Source: Salinivibrio sp. ES.052 (lineage in GTDB: Bacteria > Pseudomonadota > Gammaproteobacteria > Enterobacterales > Vibrionaceae). From it: a stretch of DNA of 64,000 bases. Where the stretch lies: positions 646,001 to 710,000 of the forward strand of contig NZ_FSRI01000002.1 of NCBI RefSeq assembly GCF_900141775.1, read 5' to 3'. This document shows, one piece after another, positions 3,478 through 30,396 of the stretch (its first letter is position 1; every line of letters begins with the position of its first letter). A program made the position numbers and the translations under genes. The notes beneath the pieces are model-generated. The model ran no database searches. It worked only from the letters and a program-made list of their open reading frames with translations, and had not been told where the DNA came from.

Positions 3478-4194
3478 CTAGCCGCCATTCTGTGCCAGTT
3501 GATAGTCACTCGTAAGCCGGTTATTCGGCATGTCATGATAAAAATCACAGGGGGCCTGAAAGTGCATCGGCATGTGGGTGGTCGGGTGCAAAATGCTCAA
3601 CTCCGCGGCATGTAAGTGCAGACGAGAGGCATACCGAAAGGCTTCTGGCCGGGCATAAAACTCGTCACCGACAATACCGTGCCCAAGCGCTTGCATGTGA
3701 ACGCGCAGTTGATGCGAACGTCCTGTGAGTGGGTACAGAGCCATTAAGCTCGTCTGTGCGCCTTGACGCAAACAGCGATAGTGAGTTTGCGAGGGTTTAC
3801 CGTGTTCAAAACAGACTTTTTGCCTTGGGCGGTTGGGCCAATCGCAAATTAAGGGCAAGTCAACGTTACCTTCAGCAGGCTCAGGGTGCCCCCAGACTTC
3901 GGCGTAATATAACTTGGTGGGGATCCGATCACGAAATTGGGCTTTGAGGTGCCGCTCAGCCTCTTTGTGTGCCGCAAACACCATGACGCCGGACGTCGAC
4001 ATGTCGAGTCGGTGCACTAACTCGGCGTCGGCAAACGCGGCCTTTACACGTGACCAAGCACTGTCATAGTGGGCCGGGTCTCGCCCGGGGTTAGCAAGCA
4101 AGCCACTGGGTTTATTGATGACTACCAAATCAGCGTCTTGATATAAGATATCGAGCCAGGGCTCCGTGGGAGGATGATATTCAGTCATTGCCAT
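3478..4194 (-). CDS. rluA: Dual-specificity 23S rRNA/tRNA pseudouridine synthase RluA
   Basis: RluA isomerises U746 of 23S rRNA and U32 of several tRNAs to pseudouridine. The 238-residue product carries the RluA catalytic motif HRLDMSTSG, with the nucleophilic Asp at about residue 64. It also has the substrate-site motifs LICDWPNRP and LTGRSHQLRVHM and the opening EPWLDILYQD. No S4 domain is present, as expected for RluA rather than RluC/D. It is about 20 residues longer than the E. coli enzyme at the C-terminus. ATGs at 4194 and 4188 are both possible; neither has a strong Shine-Dalgarno. It lies 44 bp downstream of rapA on the same strand, the same neighbour as in enterobacteria. Confidence 0.93.
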   Translation of the reverse strand: MAMTEYHPPTEPWLDILYQDADLVVINKPSGLLANPGRDPAHYDSAWSRVKAAFADAELVHRLDMSTSGVMVFAAHKEAERHLKAQFRDRIPTKLYYAEVWGHPEPAEGNVDLPLICDWPNRPRQKVCFEHGKPSQTHYRCLRQGAQTSLMALYPLTGRSHQLRVHMQALGHGIVGDEFYARPEAFRYASRLHLHAAELSILHPTTHMPMHFQAPCDFYHDMPNNRLTSDYQLAQNGG

Positions 4195-8888: not shown

Positions 8889-9893
8889 CTAAAACAGTTC
8901 GACATCGTCTTCAGCAACAAAGGTTTTTATCATGCCAGATTGGCGAAGATCATCATAAAAGGCAACTTGATTGCGTCCATTTTGTTTCGCGTGATAAAGC
9001 GCCTGATCGGCATTGCCCAAAATGGTACTTGTGCTGAGCTGTCCGCGCTCAATGCGCGTCGCCCCCATTGAAATGGTCACCGTTTGCGCCGCGCCAAAAT
9101 CACGCGCATTCACATTAGCAACCAATGTGTTGGCTTTTTGTTCTGCCATTGCACGAGTGCAGGGCTGAAATAGCACCACAAACTCATCTCCTCCGTATCG
9201 AAATAAAGAGTCTTGTGCGGAAAACGCCTGACGCATTAATGAGGCGATCAATAAGATGACTTCATCACCAAACACATGACCAAAGTTGTCATTAATCTGT
9301 TTAAAATGGTCAATATCGAAGATACCAATCCACGGTGATTGCACGTGCTCAGCATCGTCATCATCAACCGATTCACTTTGAGCTAAGCGTTCACAGATAA
9401 GGTCGAGTTTCTTAGATAACACCTTACGGTTGAACAAACTGGTAAAACTGTCTCTTTCACTGGCCATGATGATTTGTTGATAGTTTTCATAAATATGAGT
9501 GAGGCCTGATAGCAGTGCCCGTTGTTCATGGGAGAGTGTCGTGGCTCGGCCGCAAAGAATACTGCGGATATCATCGCCTTTCTCATAATAAATGGGGATC
9601 GCAATCAAAACATGATCGTCACTGTGGTGTTGCGTGATTTTTTGTGTGGATAGGCACTCATCAAGTAACGCGTCGATTTGGTCAATGTTTTCTTGTTGGA
9701 AAGCGCTATTCGCGTTGGTACCTAATACGGTAAAAGCTGGTTGCATATCGGCGCAGTAGTCGAGAAGCACCACTTCATCCACTGGGGTGAGTGCGGTGAT
9801 TGATGTGAGTAGACTCTTGGTAATGGCATCCACTTCAGTTTCAGCTGTAAAATCAACGATCGAGTCAAGAATTTGGATGCTACTAGCGGCCAC
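8889..9893 (-). CDS. Soluble GAF-like/GGDEF diguanylate cyclase
   Basis: The 334-residue protein has no membrane span. Residues about 1-150 look like a degenerate GAF-type sensor, and residues about 165-320 form a GGDEF domain with an intact active site RYGGDEFVV and the substrate motif FDIDHFKQINDNFGH. It should make cyclic di-GMP. The product-inhibition RxxD motif expected five residues before GGDEF is absent (the stretch reads AQDSLF). The start is a GTG at 9893 with AAGGAGG six bases upstream. It follows thiQ by 69 bp on the same strand and may be partly cotranscribed, but no functional link is evident. Confidence 0.88.
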   Translation of the reverse strand: MAASSIQILDSIVDFTAETEVDAITKSLLTSITALTPVDEVVLLDYCADMQPAFTVLGTNANSAFQQENIDQIDALLDECLSTQKITQHHSDDHVLIAIPIYYEKGDDIRSILCGRATTLSHEQRALLSGLTHIYENYQQIIMASERDSFTSLFNRKVLSKKLDLICERLAQSESVDDDDAEHVQSPWIGIFDIDHFKQINDNFGHVFGDEVILLIASLMRQAFSAQDSLFRYGGDEFVVLFQPCTRAMAEQKANTLVANVNARDFGAAQTVTISMGATRIERGQLSTSTILGNADQALYHAKQNGRNQVAFYDDLRQSGMIKTFVAEDDVELF

Positions 9894-9962
9894 AAGGCGC
9901 CTCCTTTTAACTGTCCATGCAAATCATAAGTATAGAACCCAATACAAAGGGTGCCATTATGT

Positions 9963-10664
9963 TCATGCAATCCGCTGCCCGATATAGTCACGCATAACCC
10001 TAGGTGGATCGTTCAGTGCGTTCACCGGCTGATAAAGTTGGATTTGGCCTTGATCCAAGTAAACAAATTGGGTGGCAATCGCTTGTGCATCTTCCGGGTG
10101 GTGGGTGACCATTACCACGGTGGTGCCTTGCTCTTGGGCAGTGCGTTTGACCAACGACAGCATGTCTTTTTTAAGCGCGGGATCGAGCGCAGAAAAAGGT
10201 TCATCTAATAACAGCAATGGTTGATTACGGGCGATGCTCCGGCCTAAAGCAATGCGTTGGCGTTGACCGCCCGAGAGTTGACCGGGCAGCCGTGACAGAT
10301 AGTCAGTTAAACCGACGGCGTGGGCGGCACGGAGAATGCTGTCACGTTGGGAGGCGGTAAGCTTCAGTGATGGTGATAAACCAATGGCCATATTGTCGAA
10401 TACTGACAAATGGGTAAAGACGTTGTGCTCTTGAAATAAGATAGACAGTGGCCGCTGGTGGGCGGGCGTCGTGGTGACTGGTTTGTCTTCAATGGTGATC
10501 TCGCCACTATCTGGCGCGATCAGCCCAGCAATCAGTGATAATAAGGTGCTTTTCCCTGCTCCGCTGGGTCCGAGCACGGCCACAATCTCTCCGGGGGCAA
10601 TGTGAGCGTCAAAGGTCATCCAATCTTGCTGGTAGCGGTATTGGACATGAGACAGAGTTAGCAT
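9963..10664 (-). CDS. thiQ: Thiamin ABC transporter ATP-binding protein ThiQ
   Basis: ThiQ powers uptake of thiamin and thiamin phosphates with ThiP and ThiB. Walker A is GPSGAGKST, the Q-loop lies in LFQEHNVF, the ABC signature is LSGGQRQR, Walker B is LLLLDEPF and the H-loop His is in VTHHPED. The start at 10664 (MLTLSHV) has GGAGG five bases upstream and matches the family N-terminus; the in-frame ATG four codons upstream is less likely. The 233 residues match E. coli ThiQ (232). It overlaps the end of thiP by 7 bp, so translation is probably coupled. Confidence 0.94.
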   Translation of the reverse strand: MLTLSHVQYRYQQDWMTFDAHIAPGEIVAVLGPSGAGKSTLLSLIAGLIAPDSGEITIEDKPVTTTPAHQRPLSILFQEHNVFTHLSVFDNMAIGLSPSLKLTASQRDSILRAAHAVGLTDYLSRLPGQLSGGQRQRIALGRSIARNQPLLLLDEPFSALDPALKKDMLSLVKRTAQEQGTTVVMVTHHPEDAQAIATQFVYLDQGQIQLYQPVNALNDPPRVMRDYIGQRIA

Positions 10665-12247
10665 GCTTGCCTCCATTGGATAAGGCGGGTCAGTAGGGCA
10701 TAACAGCCCAAACTAGTGAGCAATAACAGCATGGCCGCCGCCGCGCCCGCTTCCATTTGATAGCTGCCCATTAAGCGAAACAAATACAGCGGAAGGGTTT
10801 GAAAGTTTTGGCTGCCAAAAAGTGCAATCGCACTGAGATCGCCCATCGATAACACAAAACTCACCGCCACGCCGCGCGCGATGGGCGCGCGTAAGCACTG
10901 CCATTCGATAAGACGTAGGCGATTTATACCTTTGAGGCCCAAGGTCGCACAAAGGTTATGATAGGACTGAGCGAGTTGATAGGCGGGCGCGCTTAGAACT
11001 TTTATCAAATAGGGCAATGCCATGAGTGCGTTGACGATCATTACCAGCCATAAGGCGAGACTAAACACATCACTAAACTGGCGGAAAAGCAAAAAGAGCC
11101 CGGTGCTGAGTACGATACTCGGTACCACTAAAATGATAGCGCCGAGGGTTTCAATCCCATCCGCCTGTTTTTTTCGTCCATGTAAGCGCCAGTGCCGACT
11201 GGCTAAGATCACCGCCACGGCTAACACAAAAGCAAAGACGGTGGCGCCCGTGGCAATGAACAGCGAGTGCAGAGTCGCTTGCCACAGTGCGCTATCGCCG
11301 AGCACCGCTAATGCGCTAGGGTTCAGCCCCCGAGCAATCACTACGCCGAGAGGCGGTAACACCAGTAGCAAAACGAGGCCAATCCAGAGACTGTCCCAGC
11401 ATTTGGCGGCGCGGCTATCCAAAGACGCAGGCAGCGGAAGCACTTCACTGGGCGTGCTCGGCAGCGGACGTGTCAATGTTTGCACAGTAAATGCAATGGC
11501 TCCGCACAGCAGCATTTGCCACAGCGCGAGAACAGCACCCGTTTGTAAATCGAAATCAAAATGAATGGCTTGGTAAATGGCCAGCTCGATGGTCGTCGCT
11601 TTTGGCCCGCCACCCAGTGCCATGACAGTCGCGAAGCTGGTAAAGCACAACATAAATACTAGCCCCACGATATGCGGCAAGCTTTGGCGTAAATATGGCC
11701 ATTCTAGGTGCTTAAAACGTTGCCAGCCTTTGAGTCCTAGCTGGGTAGCCAGACGGCGTTGATCGGCCGGGATCCCCTCTAAGGCTTGTACCATTAATTG
11801 GGCGGAAAAAGGGAGATTAAAAAACACATGGGCGAGTAAAATGCCGCTTAAGCCATAAATAGAAAACGGCATAGCAGTATCGAATTGCGCGAAAGCTTGT
11901 GCAATCCAGCCGCTACGGCCATAGATAGCAACCAATCCAAAGACCCCCACCAAGACCGGGAGCACCAAGGTCATGGCGAATAGCTTCAGCAGCCATGCCT
12001 TTGCTGGAAACTGTCGGCGAGACAGTGCATGAGCGACTGGCACCGCCAGCCCAACGCTAAGCACGACGGATAAGGCGGCCTGTTTAAAACTAAAATAGGT
12101 GACATGGCGTAAATAGGTATCTTGCCATAAGGTGGCAAGTGACAAATCGTGGCTGTGAGAGAATAACGCCCAGAGTGCGCTCCCAATCAAAGCCACGACC
12201 AAGCTGGCCGCAATACTGCCCGGCCAGGTTCGAGAAGGGTTGAGCAT
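10658..12247 (-). CDS. thiP: Thiamin ABC transporter permease ThiP
   Basis: ThiP is the membrane subunit of the thiamin transporter, a fused double permease. The 529 residues show about 12 hydrophobic segments and two EAA-type cytoplasmic loops. One lies near residue 170 (ATQLGLKGWQRFKHLEWP) and the other near 440 (CATLGLKGINRLRLIEW); these contact ThiQ. The duplicated loop supports the fused architecture. It starts 5 bp after the stop of thiB and overlaps thiQ. Confidence 0.94.
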   Translation of the reverse strand: MLNPSRTWPGSIAASLVVALIGSALWALFSHSHDLSLATLWQDTYLRHVTYFSFKQAALSVVLSVGLAVPVAHALSRRQFPAKAWLLKLFAMTLVLPVLVGVFGLVAIYGRSGWIAQAFAQFDTAMPFSIYGLSGILLAHVFFNLPFSAQLMVQALEGIPADQRRLATQLGLKGWQRFKHLEWPYLRQSLPHIVGLVFMLCFTSFATVMALGGGPKATTIELAIYQAIHFDFDLQTGAVLALWQMLLCGAIAFTVQTLTRPLPSTPSEVLPLPASLDSRAAKCWDSLWIGLVLLLVLPPLGVVIARGLNPSALAVLGDSALWQATLHSLFIATGATVFAFVLAVAVILASRHWRLHGRKKQADGIETLGAIILVVPSIVLSTGLFLLFRQFSDVFSLALWLVMIVNALMALPYLIKVLSAPAYQLAQSYHNLCATLGLKGINRLRLIEWQCLRAPIARGVAVSFVLSMGDLSAIALFGSQNFQTLPLYLFRLMGSYQMEAGAAAAMLLLLTSLGCYALLTRLIQWRQAC

Positions 12248-12252
12248 CTTGG

Positions 12253-13248
12253 CTATTCAACCAGCGCGGTTTGCCAATCGCGCACCCACTGTTGGCGGTT
12301 GCCCATCACTTCATCGGGCTGATACAACAGGCTCTCTTCTGGCTTATTCAATGTATAGAAGGCGTCAGGCAAACTGATATCGGTCACCGGGTACATCCAC
12401 TGTGTGGTTGGAATGACTGACTGTGCTGCATCACTGAGCATAAATTGCAAAAATGCATCGGCTCGCTCTGGTTGGTCGGTATAAGCAGATTTAGCCGCGA
12501 CCTCAATTTGCATGTAGTGCCCTTCTTCAAACATGGCGGCGGCAAAGCGATCATCATCATCGGTGACCAGGTGGTAGGCGGGTGAGGAGGTGTATGAGAG
12601 CACCATATCGGCTTCTTTGTTGAGGAACATGTTGTAGGCTTCAGTCCAGCCTTTGGTGACGGTGATGGTGTTGTCTGCAAGCTTGCGCCATGCTTGCTGA
12701 TTGTTATCGCCATACACCTTTTGGATCCAAAGCATTAGGCCTTGGCCGACGGTTGAGATCCGAGGGTCTTGGTAAATCACACTGATGTCATCGCGCTCCT
12801 CAATCAAGGCTTTTAGGCTTTTGGGTGGATCGAGCAAGCGGGTCGTGTCATACACAAAAGCGAAATAGCCGTAATCGTAAGGGATAAAGAATTTATTGTC
12901 CCAGCCGCCCGGTACTTGCAGACGCTCGGTATTGACTGCGTGTTCCGCAACAATGCCGCTACGTTCGGCCTCTTTCATTAAATTAGTGTCCATGCCGAGT
13001 ACGATGTCGGCTTTGGTGGTTTCCCCTTCAATACGCAGGCGGTTAAGCAAGGCGGCACCATCATTCAGTGAGACGAACTCTACTTGGCAGTCACAACGTT
13101 TCTCAAATTCGGTTTTGATTTTTGGTCCAGCGCCCCATTCGGCGATAAAAGAATCATAGGTATAGACAGTCAATGGGTCGGCGGCACGAGCGCCAAGCGA
13201 TATCACTGATAAAGAGAGCAGGATTAAAAGAGAAGAAAAATGTTTCAC
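12253..13248 (-). CDS. thiB: Thiamin-binding periplasmic protein ThiB (TbpA)
   Basis: ThiB is the periplasmic receptor that delivers thiamin and its phosphates to ThiPQ. The 331-residue precursor has a signal peptide ending in LGARA before ADPLTVYTYDSF. The mature part is a family-1 solute-binding fold with VYTYDSF and IPYDYGYFAFVYD as recognisable ThiB motifs. The start is a GTG at 13248 with AGGAG about six bases upstream. It is the first gene of thiBPQ and lies directly downstream of a TPP riboswitch, so expression should fall when thiamin pyrophosphate is plentiful. Confidence 0.95.
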   Translation of the reverse strand: MKHFSSLLILLSLSVISLGARAADPLTVYTYDSFIAEWGAGPKIKTEFEKRCDCQVEFVSLNDGAALLNRLRIEGETTKADIVLGMDTNLMKEAERSGIVAEHAVNTERLQVPGGWDNKFFIPYDYGYFAFVYDTTRLLDPPKSLKALIEERDDISVIYQDPRISTVGQGLMLWIQKVYGDNNQQAWRKLADNTITVTKGWTEAYNMFLNKEADMVLSYTSSPAYHLVTDDDDRFAAAMFEEGHYMQIEVAAKSAYTDQPERADAFLQFMLSDAAQSVIPTTQWMYPVTDISLPDAFYTLNKPEESLLYQPDEVMGNRQQWVRDWQTALVE

Positions 13249-23636: not shown

Positions 23637-25355
23637 GTGGAAATGTTATCCGGTGCCGAGATGATCGTGCGCTCCATGATCGATCAAGGCGTAAAACATA
23701 TTTTTGGGTATCCAGGCGGGTCAGTGCTGGATATTTACGATGCATTACATGAGAAAAGTGGTATTGACCATGTGTTAGTGCGTCACGAGCAAGCGGCCGT
23801 ACACATGGCGGACGGTTACGCACGCGCAACCGGTGACGTCGGCGTGGTACTGGTAACGTCAGGCCCAGGCGCAACCAATGCGATTACGGGAATTGCCACC
23901 GCCTACATGGACTCCATCCCCATGGTGGTTTTTTCCGGGCAGGTGATGAGTAGCTTGATTGGCAATGATGCCTTTCAAGAGTGCGACATGGTGGGGATTT
24001 CTCGTCCTGTGGTGAAACACAGCTTTTTAGTCCAGCGTGCTGAAGATATTCCCAATATTGTCAAGAAAGCCTTTTATCTTGCCTCGACTGGACGTCCCGG
24101 CCCTGTCGTGGTGGACATTCCTAAAGACATGGTTAATCCTGCGCAAAAGCATCCGTATCAGTATCCTGATAGTGTGCGCATGCGCTCTTACAACCCGACA
24201 ACAACCGGCCACAAAGGACAGATTAAGCGCGGCCTAAAAGCGCTACTGGCAGCGAAAAAGCCGGTATTGTATGTCGGCGGTGGGGCAATCATGGCCGATT
24301 GCGGCGAACAAATCCGCCAACTATCAGAAAGCTTGAACATCCCGGTGGTGAGCACCCTGATGGGTCTGGGGGCCTTTCCGGGCACCCATGATCACTCGTT
24401 AGGTATGTTGGGGATGCACGGTACCTACGAAGCCAATATGGCGATGCACCAAGCCGATCTGATTTTTGGTATTGGTGTTCGTTTTGATGATCGTACCACT
24501 AACAACTTAGAAAAATACTGCCCCGATGCCACCATCATGCATATTGATGTGGATCCCTCGACTATTTCTAAAACTGTCTCGGCCGATATTCCTATCGTCG
24601 GCTCTGCCGACGCTGTGCTGAGTAGCATGCTTAAGTTGCTGGTGGATCAGGGAGGCAGCAATGACAGCGATGCGATCAGCTCTTGGTGGCACAATATTCA
24701 AATATGGCGTGAGCGCCAGTGCTTAAAGTATGCGTCCGATCCAGGGCGGATTAAACCGCAGCAGGTGATTGAAACCTTGTATCGACTCACCCATGGCGAG
24801 GCGTATGTAACCTCAGACGTCGGGCAGCACCAGATGTTTGCCGCACTCTATTATCCGTTTGATAAACCGCGCCGTTGGATTAACTCGGGGGGCTTAGGCA
24901 CCATGGGCTTTGGGCTACCCGCGGCGATGGGGGTGAAGTTTGCCCTGCCGGATGCGCAAGTGGTGTGTGTGACCGGCGATGGCAGCATTCAGATGAACAT
25001 TCAGGAACTCTCTACCGCGTTGCAATATGATATTCCGGTGGTGATCGTTAACCTCAATAACCGTTTCCTCGGGATGGTCAAACAATGGCAAGACATGATT
25101 TATCAAGGTCGCCACTCACATTCCTATATGGATTCGGTGCCGGACTTTGCTGCGATCACTGAGGCCTATGGTCATGTGGGGATGCGCATTAGCCATCCGT
25201 CTGAGCTGGAATCCGGCTTAGAGGCAGCCTTGGCGATGAAAGATCGCTTAGTCTTTGTCGATATTCATGTCGATGAAACCGAGCATGTTTACCCGATGCA
25301 GGTACGCGGTGGGGCGATGAATGAAATGTGGTTGAGTAAAACGGAGAGAACCTAA
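23637..25355 (+). CDS. ilvI: Acetolactate synthase III large subunit IlvI
   Basis: IlvI is the TPP- and FAD-dependent catalytic subunit that makes 2-acetolactate or 2-aceto-2-hydroxybutyrate for valine, leucine and isoleucine. The 572 residues include [15 protein letters not shown] and the catalytic Glu in [16 protein letters not shown]. The TPP/Mg site is [12 protein letters not shown]...NLNN at about residues 445-475. The C-terminus is [10 protein letters not shown]. The start is a GTG at 23637 (VEMLSGAEM), six bases after GGGAGG, matching the E. coli N-terminus; the upstream ATG at 23616 is less likely. It overlaps ilvH by one base. Confidence 0.97.
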
Positions 25356-25852
25356 TGCGCAGTATTGTATCGGTTTTAATGGAAAACGAACCAGGTGCCT
25401 TGTCGCGCGTGGTGGGCTTATTCTCTCAGCGTGGCTACAACATTGAATCACTCACGGTGTCACCGACGGATGACGCAACCTTATCGCGCTTGAATATCAC
25501 CACCTCGGTGGTGAGCGACGCGGACCGCGAGCAAATCGAAAAGCACCTGCACAAGCTGATTGATGTGCTGAAAGTAAGCAATGTGACTGAAAGCGATCAT
25601 ATTGAGCGCGAGCTGGCGTTGGTGAAGGTGAAAGCCAGCGGCTTTGCCCGCGCGGAGGTAAAACGCACCGCCGATATTTTCCGCGGTCAGATTGTGGATG
25701 TGACGCACTCGCTCTACACCGTGCAGTTGACGGGTGACAGTGACAAGTTAGATGCCTTTATTCGCGCGGTCGGTGAGATCACTGAGATCATTGAGGTGGC
25801 ACGCAGCGGTGTGGTTGGCATCGCACGCGGTGAGCGAGCGTTGCGTCAGTAA
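25355..25852 (+). CDS. ilvH: Acetolactate synthase III regulatory subunit IlvH
   Basis: IlvH is the small subunit that activates IlvI and confers valine inhibition. Its 165 residues begin with an ACT domain (MENEPGALSRVVGLFSQRG, YNIESLTVSPT), the valine-binding region, followed by the C-terminal ALS-small-subunit domain (VARSGVVGIARGERAL). The length is as in E. coli (163). The ATG overlaps the ilvI stop as TAATG, so translation is coupled. A palindromic terminator follows at 25877. Confidence 0.97.
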   Translation: MRSIVSVLMENEPGALSRVVGLFSQRGYNIESLTVSPTDDATLSRLNITTSVVSDADREQIEKHLHKLIDVLKVSNVTESDHIERELALVKVKASGFARAEVKRTADIFRGQIVDVTHSLYTVQLTGDSDKLDAFIRAVGEITEIIEVARSGVVGIARGERALRQ

Positions 25853-25876: not shown

Positions 25877-25905
25877 AAAATGGCACGCCAAGGCGTGCCA
25901 TTTTT
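25877..25905. terminator. Palindromic terminator after ilvH, left copy of the 29-bp island repeat
   Basis: AAAAT, then the perfect hairpin GGCACGCCAAGGCGTGCC, then ATTTTT. It can act in both directions. The same 29 bp recur at 28696-28724, so the accessory segment lies between two identical copies. Confidence 0.9.
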
Positions 25906-25942
25906 GATCAACAACATGATGCACCACGAAAGCAAGGCAGTC

Positions 25943-26098
25943 ATGATCGTGTTAGCTCGCTGCGAGTCATGCGAGAGGGTTCTTTACCATGCCGAAGGGG
26001 AAGATGGGCAGAACGCCAAAGGCATCATGATAACTAAAGCATTACAGGCATCACCCAGTAACTTCGAGGAAGACGACAATGCGGACGGATTCATTTAA
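25943..26098 (+). CDS. Small CxxC protein of unknown function
   Basis: A 51-residue acidic protein is predicted from the ATG at 25943, with AAGG five bases upstream; the frame also stays open further upstream through the terminator. The only feature is CESC at residues 7-10, which could bind zinc or form a disulfide. The C-terminus is acidic (FEEDDNADGF). It overlaps the next gene by 20 bp in another frame, an arrangement common in phage early regions. I do not recognise the family. Confidence 0.45.
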   Translation: MIVLARCESCERVLYHAEGEDGQNAKGIMITKALQASPSNFEEDDNADGFI

Positions 26099-26339
26099 TG
26101 AGGGCTACGCCCATGCAGCACAAAAACACCGCTACACCAACCCTTACCCTGCAAACACAGATGAGCATGAGGAGTTTGCCCGCGGCTACTTCCAATACAT
26201 AAAGCTGTATGGCGATGCAGGGATCCCAAAACACGACCACAGTATGCGCCGCTTGGGTGGAAGACATCAAAGCATTGAAGACTACAAGGCTGGAGCCACA
26301 TCCTCACCAAGCAATCACTACGCAAAGAGGAGGGGATAA
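26079..26339 (+). CDS. Small protein with ribosome-modulation-factor-like pattern
   Basis: The 86-residue product starts at an ATG seven bases after GAGGAAG. Its N-terminal half reads EGYAHAAQKHRYTNPYP, then FARGYFQYIKLYG. The spacing G-Y, N-P-Y, G-Y recalls Rmf-like small proteins found in phages and proteobacteria (GYxAG, C/NPY, W/F-xxGW). That resemblance is by eye only and the second half (RRLGGRHQSIEDYKAG) adds little. It overlaps the preceding gene, so coupling is likely. Function unknown. Confidence 0.5.
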   Translation: MRTDSFNEGYAHAAQKHRYTNPYPANTDEHEEFARGYFQYIKLYGDAGIPKHDHSMRRLGGRHQSIEDYKAGATSSPSNHYAKRRG

Positions 26340-26521
26340 CTAGCCTCATAAAATTTTTCCCATTTTTTTAAATTTATCCCCTAAATGCCCTTGCATTCTA
26401 AAAAGTGGGTTTAGCCTAGTGATGTTCAACGCATAAGGCGCGGCTTTAACACCCTTCACGCGAAGCTGGATGTTTGTATTTGATAGGTCAATCAAAAGCA
26501 TACAGTTGTAATTATTTAAAA

Positions 26522-26541
26522 CACTGTATTAACACACAGTA
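26522..26541. promoter_or_regulatory. Putative LexA (SOS) box
   Basis: CTGTATTAACACACAG is an exact CTGT-N8-ACAG match to the gammaproteobacterial LexA operator, flanked by A and TA as in the extended consensus. It lies 26 bp before a GTG start that has an AGGAGG ribosome site. Damage-inducible expression of the 61-codon gene is inferred. Confidence 0.6.
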
Positions 26542-26565
26542 TTCGGGGGGCTATTAGGAGGCTAA

Positions 26566-26751
26566 GTGTCTGATATTTCAAATCAAGCGGTAGCGTGGAT
26601 AGAGTGCGCATTATCGCAAGACACATGCAGTGCGGATACCGACAAAACCGCCATAGAAGCCTATTTGTATCGGCTTATTGCAAAAGACATCGAGGACCAG
26701 CGCGCAGCCACGTGCGATGGCGACAAATGGAAAATCGGTACTGCGTACTGA
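26566..26751 (+). CDS. Small acidic protein, probably SOS-controlled, function unknown
   Basis: A 61-residue protein from a GTG start with AGGAGG four bases upstream, one of the best ribosome sites in the island. It is acidic, has no membrane span or signal peptide, and its middle (TAIEAYLYRLIAKDIEDQRAAT) is probably helical. Two Cys (ALSQDTC and AATC) are present. I do not recognise a family. A LexA-type box just upstream suggests induction by DNA damage, as for phage antirepressors such as Tum of phage 186, but there is no sequence evidence for that function. Confidence 0.5.
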   Translation: MSDISNQAVAWIECALSQDTCSADTDKTAIEAYLYRLIAKDIEDQRAATCDGDKWKIGTAY

Positions 26752-27095
26752 TTAAACAATGTTCATTAGACGACATAGGTCACATTCTTATCTTTTATTC
26801 GAAGCATGGCCTAGCCTCTATTCAGAACATGCCACAGAACCCCTCTAAAACGACCTCTCGTAATTGTATTAGTACGCATGCACACTTTCCCTGCCCTTAA
26901 GGGCAGGTTGTCTCTAGAGAGCTTTTTTTGTGCGTTTAAACCGATCTAGCCATACTTTGACGTGCTTTAAAAAGCTTGAACTGCTTCAAAAATGGGTTGT
27001 AATGTAACTCTACAAGTGGATAATTTGCGGCCACTTCGTTCTTCGCCTCAAAAGAAAAATAACGTCTAATATTTGAATCAACGGCAAGGTCTTAC
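26752..27095. other. AT-rich non-coding stretch within the island
   Basis: No supported gene. It contains two adjacent palindromes with a T-run (listed separately) and, after them, the probable promoter region of the 27096 gene, for which I see no clear -10/-35. Confidence 0.4.
26890..26929 (+). terminator. Double-palindrome terminator candidate
   Basis: The perfect palindrome CCTGCCCTTAAGGGCAGG is followed by TCTCTAGAGA and then GC with seven T. The first stem is strong, but the T-run is separated from it by the second palindrome, so termination is likely but the exact structure is uncertain. Confidence 0.5.
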
Positions 27096-27647
27096 ATGAG
27101 TAAAGGATTGGTTATGAGTGCACTATGTTTAGCGCTCAGCAGCAATGCAAGCGCATCACTGATTGACGCTCAGCAAGTGGCAATCAATTACGATGTCTCA
27201 GACGAGCAATTGAGCTCGAAAGGCAGCCATGCCGCCTTTACCAAAGCCATGGCTGAAGCTAAGCAAGCTATCGATGAAGAGACTAAAGGTTGGCAAGAAA
27301 AGTATAGCGAGATTGAGTCATCAGACAACCCAATACAGTACTTCCATGCTGGTAACGTGGCGCAACTGGAATCCACTGATTTGATCGTTCGTGGCAACGA
27401 AATGATGCTTCGAGTTCAGGTCGAGGAGCTGTTTTCAAAGTTCGGTGAAAAGATCCCAAGTGAGGTAGCGCTGTCAATTCGCCAGCTGCGTATATCTGTT
27501 GCCAAGCTGCGAATGTCCATCACAAATGTTATGGACATGGAAAAACAACTTCGCCCAGCAATTAGTGCGGATAAAGCGTCTTTTACTATGACTCCCGATG
27601 CATTAGAATCAATGAAGGCTGCGACAAAAAACGCATATTTTCATTGA
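27096..27647 (+). CDS. Putative exported helical protein of unknown function
   Basis: The 183-residue product begins with a plausible signal peptide (MSKGLVMSALCLALSSNASA, cleavage after ASA), though the positively charged N-region is short. The remainder is rich in helical, charged sequence (AFTKAMAEAKQAIDEETKGW, then LFSKFGEKIPSEVAL and IRQLRISVAKLRMSI) and probably forms coiled-coil-like helices at about residues 110-160. No family was recognised. AAGG lies seven bases before the ATG. It is followed after 26 bp by a YafO-like gene in the same direction, so the two may form an operon. If the signal peptide is real, it argues against an antitoxin role. Confidence 0.5.
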   Translation: MSKGLVMSALCLALSSNASASLIDAQQVAINYDVSDEQLSSKGSHAAFTKAMAEAKQAIDEETKGWQEKYSEIESSDNPIQYFHAGNVAQLESTDLIVRGNEMMLRVQVEELFSKFGEKIPSEVALSIRQLRISVAKLRMSITNVMDMEKQLRPAISADKASFTMTPDALESMKAATKNAYFH

Positions 27648-27673
27648 GCCAGGAATCATTAAGGGGCTAAGGA

Positions 27674-28120
27674 ATGCACCAAATTTCGTTTTCAGCACGG
27701 TTTGAAGAGGAAGCCACTGCACTTAGCCTTGATCACAGCACTCTGGATAAGATAGGTGAAGACCTAAAAAAGCACTTAGATGCAATCCATCGAGGAACAG
27801 GAGAAATGCCTGTTCCTTATCTTGGGAACACAAGCCCCTTTACTTATCCACAAAGCGCGTACGATGCCCCGCTATATCGTATACATGTATTCGATATCAA
27901 TTGCCCTAACTTTAATGACAAAGAGCAAACGAGGTGGAATAAGGCTTCTCAGCTCCACCATCGGACGAGCGACACTTACTTCGTTTTTACACGTAATTTC
28001 CTGTCTGAGTTTGAATGCCGCTTTATTGGCGTAATTTCTGACGCCCACAATACCTGTAGAACAAATAAGACTTGGTATGTTCCCTTCGTAGAAGAAGCAG
28101 ATAGATTCAACAACATATAA
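27674..28120 (+). CDS. YafO-like putative toxin
   Basis: The 148-residue protein resembles YafO-type mRNA interferases in the order of short blocks: an LYRIHVFD strand, then HHRTSDTYFVFTR, then FIGVISDAHNTCR and a C-terminal EEADRF. YafO toxins show the same hydrophobic-His, RTSD/N, Asp-Ala-His and Ae-F pattern and inhibit translation by ribosome-dependent mRNA cleavage. The match is by eye and weak overall. AGGGG lies seven bases before the ATG. No recognisable YafN-type antitoxin adjoins it; the upstream gene looks exported. It could instead be an unrelated phage protein. Confidence 0.4.
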   Translation: MHQISFSARFEEEATALSLDHSTLDKIGEDLKKHLDAIHRGTGEMPVPYLGNTSPFTYPQSAYDAPLYRIHVFDINCPNFNDKEQTRWNKASQLHHRTSDTYFVFTRNFLSEFECRFIGVISDAHNTCRTNKTWYVPFVEEADRFNNI

Positions 28121-28189
28121 CCCTTATCAATACCCATTCCCCTCTCTTATAAGCATTATCATCACCTCTGCGCCTTTTTAGTGTGGCCC

Positions 28190-28605
28190 TCAAAACAACG
28201 ACAACTGACTATGTAAATCCTTCCGCCGCTCTGGCGTGAGTGATTTGATTAGCGCGCTGGCGAGTTCATCGGTTGTTTTCGTGCTTGGCGAAAGTGGGCT
28301 GTGGTAGTGAGAGAACGCGACGAACTGGTGACCGCAATCAGCGTTCGTGCACTGGCAATAAATATCGGCACAGTTTTGCGAGAGTCGATTTGTTTTCGTG
28401 ATCCGCGCGCGGGAACCACAGCCACAAAAATGCGCTTCTGTTTCACAAAAGTGCCCTGCTATGACTCTAATTTGCTGTGCTGCAGCGTGTGTTTATAGCT
28501 CACCGTTTGCACAAAGCTGTGACTGTAATTCGGGTCGCTGCACACACAGTGCAAATCACTTTTATCAAATCTTTGTTCATGTTTTGGTGTGTGCTACCGC
28601 GCCGA
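28190..28605 (-). pseudogene. Degenerate tandem Ogr/Delta-type zinc-finger activator
   Basis: On the minus strand the frame ending at 28190 reads HFCGCGSRARITKTNRLS, then YCQCTNADCGHQFVAF, then HSPLSPS. This is the Ogr/Delta zinc finger of P2-type phages. The frame is open from 28492 but contains no ATG, GTG or TTG before the finger, and the first ligand pair is CxC instead of CxxC. Further upstream, in another frame (stop at 28459), DLHCVCSDPNYSHSFVQTV repeats the second half of the finger with Cys changed to Tyr. Beyond that, GAVAHTKT recalls the first half, after another frame change. This looks like a two-finger activator, as in P4 Delta, broken by frameshifts. Confidence 0.6.
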
Positions 28606-28695
28606 ATTGGAAAAAAACTCTCAAAGTATCCTTCATCACTTAAATCTATACTTTTCTTGGCACAACCTTTTTTTTAGCTGGTAATGTGTATTGAT

Positions 28696-28724
28696 AAAAT
28701 GGCACGCCAAGGCGTGCCATTTTT
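28696..28724. terminator. Palindromic terminator after treC, right copy of the 29-bp island repeat
   Basis: Identical over 29 bp to 25877-25905, with one extra T. It lies 8 bp beyond the treC stop and would terminate treC on the minus strand. Confidence 0.9.
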
Positions 28725-28731
28725 TATGCTG

Positions 28732-30396
28732 TTAGGCCGAGTGAATCAAATACACCAAGGCTTCATAGGGTGCTAGTTGCATTTCTGGCATTAACGGCTT
28801 GGCTTCTGGGTAATTATGGCTGACCAAGTCTGCGTTCGGGGCCGGGGCGACAGGCAAGGTCGCCGTGACCGGTTCGCCATAAAAGTTACACACCACCACC
28901 AGTTGGCTGTCGCCATTGTCGCGACGATACGCGAGCAGTTGTGGGTGATCAGGCAGCAAGTCCTGATAATCGCCTTCACGGATCACGGGTAAGGTTTTAC
29001 GCAGGGAAATCAGCTGCTTGTAGTGATAGAGCACCGAGTCTTTATCCGCCAGTGCGGTGTCGACATTGACGTCAACATAGTTAGGCGCAGGCTTTAGCCA
29101 CGGTGTACCTGTGGTAAAGCCGGCATTCTCTGAACGATCCCATTGCATCGGTGTGCGGGCGTTATCCCGTGAACGTGCCGCCAAAATCGCTAATACTTCC
29201 CCTTCTGGCATGCCTTGGTCGCACAGCAGACGGTGCATGTTCAAGCTCTCAACGTCTTGATAGTCATCGATACGCTGATAGCCAGGGTTGGTCATGCCAA
29301 TTTCTTCCCCTTGATATACGTAAGGCGTGCCTTGCTGCATATGAATCGCAGTGGCAAGCATTTTGGCGGACGCGACCCGATAGTGGCGGTCATCACCAAA
29401 GCGGCTGACCACACGCGGCTGGTCGTGGTTACACCAAAACAGTGCACCCCAACCTTGATTATGCAGGCCGTGTTGCCAAGTGCGGAAAAGCTGTTTTAGG
29501 GCCAAGAAGTCAAACGGCGCCAGTCGCCACTTTTCGCCGTCCGGATAATCGACTTTTAAGTGGTGGAAGTTGAACACCATGGAGAGCTCTTTGCCATCGG
29601 GTGCGGAGTATTGCTGGCAGTGCTCCAGGCTGGTGGAAGACATCTCGCCCACGGTGACGCTGCCGTAACGTTGGAAAATATCTCGGCTGATCTCTTGCAA
29701 GTACTCGTGGACGCGGGGGCCATCGGTATAAAAACGGCGGCCATCGCCTTGGTGATCATTCGGGAAGGACTGATCTTTAGAGATCAAATTGATCACGTCG
29801 AGTCGAAAGCCATCCACACCTTTGTCGGCCCAAAAGGCCATTACGTCTTTGACGGCTGCCCGCACCTCAGGGTTTTCCCAGTTAAGATCGGCTTGCTCGG
29901 TAGCAAATAAATGCAGGTAATACTGGCCGGTGGGGTCGTGCCATTGCCACGCATTACCGCCAAACTTTGATTGCCAGTTGTTCGGGACGCCACCGTTAAT
30001 TGGATCTTTCCAAATGTAGTAATCGCGATACGGACTGTCTTTGCTTGCCAGCGCTGATTGAAACCAAGGGTGCTCGGTTGAGGTGTGGTTAATCACAATA
30101 TCCATGATGATGCGGACATCGCGCTTGTGCGCCTCGGCGAGCAGGGTGTCGAAGTCGTCCATGGTGCCTAGGCTGGGGTCAATCGCATAATAATCGGCAA
30201 TGTCGTAGCCGTTATCGACTTGTGGTGATACATAAATGGGGGTTAGCCATAATGCATCGATGCCCAAGGTCGAAAAATAGTCCAGTTTTTCGATAATGCC
30301 CGGCAGATCACCTGTCCCTGTTTGTGTGGTATCACGGAAGCTTTTCGGGTAAATCTGATAGATGGTGGCCGTTTTCCACCAGGGATGTGCGTGCAT
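28732..30396 (-). CDS. treC: Trehalose-6-phosphate hydrolase TreC
   Basis: TreC splits trehalose 6-phosphate, delivered by TreB, into glucose and glucose 6-phosphate in the cytoplasm. The 554-residue GH13 enzyme has its nucleophile Asp in DGFRLDVIN (about residue 200), acid/base Glu in VGEMSST (about 251) and the third carboxylate in NHDQPRVVSR (about 322). The opening WWKTATIYQIYPKSFRD is typical. The length equals the family (551 in E. coli). It follows treB after 58 bp that contain a terminator hairpin, so its level is probably lower than that of treB. It ends at a palindromic terminator. Confidence 0.96.
   Translation of the reverse strand: MHAHPWWKTATIYQIYPKSFRDTTQTGTGDLPGIIEKLDYFSTLGIDALWLTPIYVSPQVDNGYDIADYYAIDPSLGTMDDFDTLLAEAHKRDVRIIMDIVINHTSTEHPWFQSALASKDSPYRDYYIWKDPINGGVPNNWQSKFGGNAWQWHDPTGQYYLHLFATEQADLNWENPEVRAAVKDVMAFWADKGVDGFRLDVINLISKDQSFPNDHQGDGRRFYTDGPRVHEYLQEISRDIFQRYGSVTVGEMSSTSLEHCQQYSAPDGKELSMVFNFHHLKVDYPDGEKWRLAPFDFLALKQLFRTWQHGLHNQGWGALFWCNHDQPRVVSRFGDDRHYRVASAKMLATAIHMQQGTPYVYQGEEIGMTNPGYQRIDDYQDVESLNMHRLLCDQGMPEGEVLAILAARSRDNARTPMQWDRSENAGFTTGTPWLKPAPNYVDVNVDTALADKDSVLYHYKQLISLRKTLPVIREGDYQDLLPDHPQLLAYRRDNGDSQLVVVCNFYGEPVTATLPVAPAPNADLVSHNYPEAKPLMPEMQLAPYEALVYLIHSA

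Follow-up and report, generated by a model that had tools for sequence, protein, structure and literature searches.

A 2.8-kb island located between ilvH and treC, in a 64,000-nt stretch of Salinivibrio sp. ES.052 DNA (the window, whose coordinates are used unless another record is named), is most probably the accessory-gene (defence) hotspot of a P2-like Salinivibrio phage, lodged without the remaining phage in the terminator shared by ilvIH and treC. A phage origin of the island is strongly supported by its sequence and, judged by homology, the 2.8 kb is internal P2-like phage DNA that extends from just after gpA to just past ogr. Two donor-type phages were used for this comparison: SMHB1, a P2-like Salinivibrio phage (Playavirus, NC_047775) that matches both edges of the slot, and L036 (IMGVR_UViG_2648501170_000001), a 32.8-kb Salinivibrio prophage record found by the left-end pattern and by an ogr search. 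The locus was compared in eight Salinivibrio genomes, all species representatives (G000-G007), among which G000 is the source genome, G005 is S. sharmensis and G006 is S. siamensis. The features of the island and of its core flanks, including its open reading frames (ORFs) with lengths in amino acids (aa), are as follows.

25355..25852, plus strand: ilvH (acetolactate synthase small subunit), the left core flank (Pfam ALS_ss_C, 3.4e-27)
25877..25905, no strand: left 29-bp terminator hairpin, from identity, copy count and fold
25906..25912, no strand: 7-bp filler between hairpin and phage DNA, identical in G000 and G005; phage homology starts at 25913
25913..26098, plus strand: 3' part of a phage zinc-ribbon ORF, 93.5% DNA identity to L036 over 186 bp
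26079..26339, plus strand: 86-aa ORF, 95% to G005, with weak matches in three other family genomes
26522..26541, plus strand: LexA/SOS-type box ahead of the 61-aa ORF, one mismatch to TACTGT-N8-ACAGTA
26566..26751, plus strand: 61-aa ORF, homologue of SMHB1 PP_00020; 26492-26704 is 84% identical to SMHB1 10490-10701
27096..27647, plus strand: cargo gene 1, 183-aa protein of no known family, with a probable signal peptide (by eye)
27674..28120, plus strand: cargo gene 2, 148-aa YafO-like toxin (PF13957, 23.9 bits for a cut-off of 25)
28189..28623, minus strand: ogr, double Ogr/Delta zinc-finger late-gene activator, broken; 85% identical to SMHB1 12233-12670
28624..28695, no strand: phage DNA between ogr and the upstream region of the phage gene that follows (189 aa in L036); stops at the hairpin
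28696..28724, no strand: right 29-bp terminator hairpin, from identity, copy count and fold
28732..30396, minus strand: treC, the right core flank (Pfam Alpha-amylase, 4.9e-175)

When the island was compared by blastn with the phage collection, SMHB1 was the sole match (two records of one phage), at 26492-26704 and 28189-28623 with 84-85% identity. With L036 included, the identity of the slot-edge DNA to these phages is 83-94%. The gene order in L036 is gpA (PF05840, 2.5e-81), the 78-aa zinc-ribbon ORF, the SOS-region ORF, a 216-aa gene, a 322-aa putAbiC gene (PF16872, 7.5e-18), ogr, a 189-aa gene, portal (PF04860, 1.8e-10) and terminase, and the matches of the G000 island to 20.4 kb of this record are confined to the interval from gpA to the 189-aa gene. 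The captured stretch runs from codon 18 of the zinc-ribbon gene, which follows gpA, to just upstream of the gene located after ogr, and its end points fall within ~10 bp of each other in the four species whose site is occupied (G000, G005, G002 and G006): the left one lies at positions 496-498 of the L036 segment and the right one at 3586-3596. The right end point is given by a 540-bp alignment in G005 and by short weak matches elsewhere (34-43 bp, E 0.009-0.047); in the window, L036 homology extends to 28652 and is followed by a short weak match at 28671-28704 (E 0.011).

The left junction cuts a phage gene. The zinc-ribbon ORF is full-length in L036, where it starts at segment position 445, and the match begins at position 496; the first 17 residues are gone and the island starts at residue 18. 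Matches to the 60-aa left ORF were found in three of 247 family genomes, G000 included. A distant zinc-ribbon homologue (36-37%) occurs near gpA in G038, a genome of the family outside the genus, which combines a P2-type gpA (6.7e-108) with a nearby 37% zinc-ribbon homologue and a double Ogr/Delta protein, other genes being located between; a search of the phage collection with this G038 homologue gave no match. The 86-aa ORF is matched in five of the 247 family genomes (G000 included), was without a match in the phage collection and had none confirmed in IMG/VR. When the ORFs around its three weak matches (L054, L055 and L056) were judged by eye, L056 alone looked phage-like. Further inside the island, the SOS-type box is not significant when taken by itself (one match against 1.49 expected by chance), but SMHB1 has a matching box at the equivalent position. 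At the other edge, the ogr homologues of SMHB1 and L036 belong to PF04606 (2.5e-16 and 8.1e-17, respectively). Relative to SMHB1, the G000 gene is disrupted by a frameshift and an in-frame stop; the nearly identical ogr of G006 looks broken likewise, and G005 retains an uninterrupted frame of 121 aa. As far as can be read from its ORFs, the island carries no recognised mobility gene at present: no integrase was detected among those scanned (seven against Pfam and PHROGs, five against NCBIfam), and no gpA, portal or primase/helicase in the same three collections.

The phage-like stretch is framed by a repeat whose core has no further exact copy in the genome. The preliminary description of this DNA had stated that the hairpins following ilvH and treC, at 25877-25905 and 28696-28724, are identical over 29 bp, and this was confirmed. 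A 28-bp form gave four strand-wise matches in the window (two sites on both strands, ≤3 mismatches) against none in 100 shuffles. The exact core palindrome TGGCACGCCNNGGCGTGCCA, with its 18 fixed bases, is found at two sites in the 3.57-Mb genome, both at the island edges and not at unrelated gene ends. It is present in all eight genomes of the genus, at one or two sites each that adjoin ilvH and/or treC, and in none of the other 239 among the 247 family genomes searched. An exact scan of genome_contigs with a 24-fixed-base form of the hairpin returned eight stretches, five from Salinivibrio and three from betaproteobacteria, and an exact scan of IMG/VR returned none for the core, with the proviso that both scans may omit records very near the source genome. 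The core is also absent, at ≤3 mismatches, from SMHB1 and three related prophage records (0/4), the ends of which may be missing. The two copies are strong hairpins by their predicted folding energies of -25.2 and -18.6 kcal/mol (z -6.55 and -5.51); a simple terminator scan listed neither copy.

The ilvH-treC junction was compared among the eight species. The core flanks are stable, with ilvH proteins 98-100% identical in all eight genomes and treC detected by tblastn in all eight, as two pieces in G001. Four of these genomes (G001, G003, G004 and G007) have an empty site, which consists of ilvH, a short spacer with one hairpin, and treC. Without the insert, the two operons meet at a single hairpin, as had been supposed, and the entry of an element at this shared terminator is supported by the four single-hairpin junctions together with the uniqueness of the core palindrome. 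Among the other four sites, an insert located between two hairpins measures ~2.8 kb in G000 and ~3.0 kb in G005, where the left and right hairpins differ at two loop bases. The insert of G002 is ~1 kb long, with a full hairpin at the treC side only; at its ilvH side, AAATGGCA joins phage-like DNA directly. The left junction of G006 is that of G002 and its right junction that of G000, again with a full hairpin only at the treC side. Direct repeats are thus found at both ends in G000 and, save for two loop bases, in G005, but not in G002 or G006, and the initial picture of an island bounded by two hairpins holds for the first two species and has to be restricted to the treC side in the others.

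The four islands have common phage end points and differing cargo. In G000, the 183-aa and YafO-like genes are probably an anti-phage or toxin-type module. Three YafO-like homologues pass the PF13957 cut-off (31.9, 40.1 and 39.8 bits). The island protein itself also matches PHROG 1651, of unknown function (1.7e-11), and two Klebsiella phages of the phage collection at 29%; a search of solved structures gave no match. The 183-aa protein has homologues in nine of 246 other family genomes, and no above-cut-off match in Pfam, PHROGs, NCBIfam or PADLOC, nor any match in the phage collection. None of the five window ORFs scanned with PADLOC gave a match at 1 or better. Both genes are adjacent in four Vibrionaceae genomes (G000, G238, G107 and G095; window 27096-28120, L072 8282-9283, L073 8319-9343 and L074 8014-9038), apparently on a conjugative plasmid in G238, and G171 contains a weak YafO-like match with an internal stop. 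The cargo of G005 comprises an endonuclease/exonuclease/phosphatase family protein (5.7e-15) and a 186-aa protein, that of G006 a putAbiC protein, putatively of abortive infection (2.3e-17; PADLOC AbiP, 2.9e-08), and a 204-aa protein, and that of G002 a 217-aa protein without Pfam or PADLOC match. Homologues of the G002 and G006 cargo are present in L036 at the same place and in the same orientation. As regards the G000 pair, the 183-aa gene occurs also without a recognised partner, and an exported partner would be unusual for a YafO-like toxin.

In a flanking-gene tree with G007 as root, G001 and G004 are the next branches, these three genomes being empty, and the remaining five are G005, G002, G003 (empty), G000 and G006; the fork uniting G003 with G000 and G006 has a support of 84/99, and occupancy requires two changes. 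Since the occupied species are not a clade, one capture needs either a loss in G003 or a transfer between species, and the shared phage end points combined with the tree point to a single capture followed by one of these two events. An exchange between species is suggested by G000 and G006, the flanking genes of which are 91.1% identical. Over 28227-28724, they differ by one substitution and two indels, after which 10 of the next 19 bases differ; 28190-28724 contains nine substitutions, and the following 1672 bases, up to 30396, contain 110 (Fisher p 2.5e-06, the segment being chosen post hoc). This near-identity begins 38 bp inside the 3' end of ogr and extends to the right hairpin's outer edge and no further, which indicates that the limit of a recent exchange is probably located in the hairpin. 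Some caution is required, as G000 has an unusually divergent treC 3' end compared with all other species, which sharpens the step, and no such step exists in the G000-G005 or G005-G006 pairs. In L036 (11478-11529) and in G006 (L025 808-837), incomplete direct copies of the 3' end of ogr (30-54 bp, 83-89%) are located beyond the AbiC-like gene, a possible footprint of cargo addition by recombination. These copies and the start of the G000-G006 identity near the end of ogr are as expected if exchange occurs there. A deletion inside the island (about 537-1137 of the L036 segment) is common to G002 and G006, and the phage DNA on the left has changed least in G000 and G005. That the two-hairpin forms are the least changed and the others carry a deletion favours a loss of the left hairpin in G002 and G006.

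Several other explanations were weighed against a captured phage hotspot. Palindromic terminators are common in general, and the repeat might be one of these, the region being then an ordinary variable intergenic stretch. This is extremely unlikely in view of the two exact sites in the genome, the eight stretches in genome_contigs, five of them from Salinivibrio, and the single-hairpin junctions of relatives; a dispersed terminator repeat is ruled out by the copy counts in the genome, in the family genomes and in genome_contigs. The hairpin could instead be a true attachment (att) site, at which a tyrosine recombinase, since lost or acting in trans, inserted a circular element with the 29-mer as its core. 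Such a site would agree with a dyad-symmetric core that has a 2-bp asymmetric centre, with the exact direct repeats at both ends of the G000 island, with the arrest of G000-G006 near-identity at the right hairpin's outer edge and with a core palindrome unique to the locus. It is nevertheless improbable. The inserted DNA is an internal phage segment with a cut gene at one end and no integrase among the ORFs scanned, the core is missing from IMG/VR (exact) and from the four phage records (≤3 mismatches), the left copy is absent from two of the four occupied sites, and SMHB1 integrates in dusA (PMC8537503). The preliminary description had offered this attachment site as one possibility, which the internal gpA-to-ogr segment, the integrase result and the cut left edge do not sustain. 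Its account of the content fared better: phage-type genes are borne out by the homology to SMHB1 and L036, the Ogr remnant is real, and the SOS-type box, not significant by its count alone, has a counterpart in SMHB1.

A related and even less probable scenario assumes that a complete prophage once occupied the site, with the hairpins as attL and attR, and that two large deletions removed the int-to-gpA and portal-to-tail regions. Inactivated elements are described in PMC9122126 as losing genes until host-adaptive functions remain. Both deletions would nonetheless need to end at the inner edges of the hairpins, and no complete prophage was found at the site in the eight species (the G006 island having a contig break). 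The order of events is a different matter. In a version that departs from the best explanation solely in this order, illegitimate capture came first: the fragment was joined inside the left hairpin arm via short matches, and G000 and G005 acquired the ilvH-side hairpin afterwards, which was retained since ilvIH requires a terminator. The left junctions of G002 and G006, reduced to AAATGGCA opposite a full right hairpin, agree with this order, as does the GAT-NNN-ATGGCA of L036 at the right end point, where ATGGCA is in register with the hairpin arm. The deletion shared by G002 and G006 and the least changed state of G000 and G005, which make the hairpin-less form look derived, speak against it, and this order is considered possible but doubtful.

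The explanation favoured here, a hotspot captured without its phage, would involve the following steps. A phage fragment would have been captured once at the shared palindrome, in the ancestor of part of the genus. The retained phage flanks, namely the SOS-box region and ogr, would then provide homology for cargo swaps with infecting P2-like phages or with other islands, phage functions decaying meanwhile, as may be seen in the broken ogr of G000. As terminators, the hairpins would isolate the two operons from the slot; being also direct repeats of 29 bp, they would be passive recombination ends and permit precise loss. This mechanism is weakest in accounting for the duplicated 29 bp, for which the candidate causes are a staggered break at the palindrome that was filled in, or a later regain of the ilvH-side hairpin. 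A bolder proposal, tentative and rather unlikely, is that the slot now serves the chromosome as a domesticated docking site, in which the phage homology arms take up cargo from infecting P2-like phages and the palindromes bound hairpin-to-hairpin exchange between species and precise exit.

Some observations weigh against the captured hotspot. The left hairpin is absent from two of the four occupied sites, so that a duplication of the terminator as part of entry, as first proposed, is possible at most. On the flanking-gene tree, a single clade of the four occupied species is rejected (p-AU 0.0102). The G006 island is split across two contigs, from which its occupancy and size had to be deduced, and each species is represented by one genome, within-species polymorphism lying outside the sample. 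Cargo exchange is deduced from mosaic structure, and a second ogr end was found in two of the nine sequences searched and is absent from seven. A defence role is putative for every cargo and is read from family matches; no family is known for the 183-aa protein, and the scan of three SMHB1 slot proteins yielded neither an above-cut-off Pfam match nor a PADLOC match.

A few observations concern the hairpins and the phage relatives in their own right. Read in the ilvH direction, the two loop bases are TT in G001 and in the left copy of G005 and AA in other copies, as if the centre of the palindrome had been inverted. The left hairpin is in frame with the truncated phage ORF (25880-26098) and contains its start ATG, probably by accident. 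Matches of both hairpins to Rfam STnc320 (scores of 32.1 and 25.1 for a gathering score of 50) were taken as chance, and a tRNA attachment site was discarded as no tRNA occurs anywhere in the window. At 9305-9960, between ogr and portal, L036 has a further accessory gene, whose 189-aa product matches PHROG 11949 and no Pfam family; another SOS-type box, CTGTATTTTTGTACAG, lies ahead of it. Two equal-scoring gpA-type genes are present in G000, one near a contig start (C3:605-1408) and one less than 7 kb from an end (C6:2029253-2030056); the stretches around the gpA-type genes of G000 and G004 had no DNA match to the island. The best matches to a P2 cos 19-mer were 13/19 in the island and 14/19 in SMHB1 itself; the motif is unfit here, and a cos-ended fragment, for which it was found in neither, has no support. 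A plasmid origin of the whole island was also rejected, the sole match being 84 bp long, located where cargo gene 1 starts and confined to one V. crassostreae conjugative plasmid.

What is new at this locus, on which the literature searches listed no paper, is the arrangement and not the components. A donor-type segment, two end points, empty sites and four versions of the cargo are assembled at one small locus, which makes capture and exchange directly testable. The 183-aa and YafO-like genes, which are paired in three further genomes of the family, are also a candidate for a small toxin or defence module.

The Delta protein of P4 is an Ogr/Delta-type zinc finger protein. P4-like satellites resemble the island in combining such a zinc finger with a variable slot (P4 hotspot, PMC9122126), and differ from it by their integrase and primase, neither of which was detected among the island ORFs scanned. 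A closer parallel is the cos-proximal gpA-gpQ hotspot of anti-phage genes in P2-like phages, as presented in PMC9122126: like the island, it is located after gpA and before portal, its variable cargo is held between conserved phage flanks and it likewise contains abortive-infection and toxin-type genes. That hotspot sits in a phage genome, whereas the island stands alone at the ilvH-treC terminator, without int, gpA, portal or structural genes and with a decaying ogr. The K139-type hotspot of Vibrionaceae, described in the same paper between cI and the integrase, is unlike the island in its place. SMHB1 and L036, the donor-type phages, have homologous slot edges and, for L036, homologous cargo; they differ in their phage length and structural genes, and neither contains the hairpin. 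The capture of defence genes in islands, and the part of phage hotspots in it, are presented as future work in PMC9122126. The island resembles chromosomal defence islands and hotspots, with variable, possibly defensive genes between fixed core genes and empty sites in relatives; it differs from them in that its slot edges are recognisable phage DNA, which makes its origin traceable.

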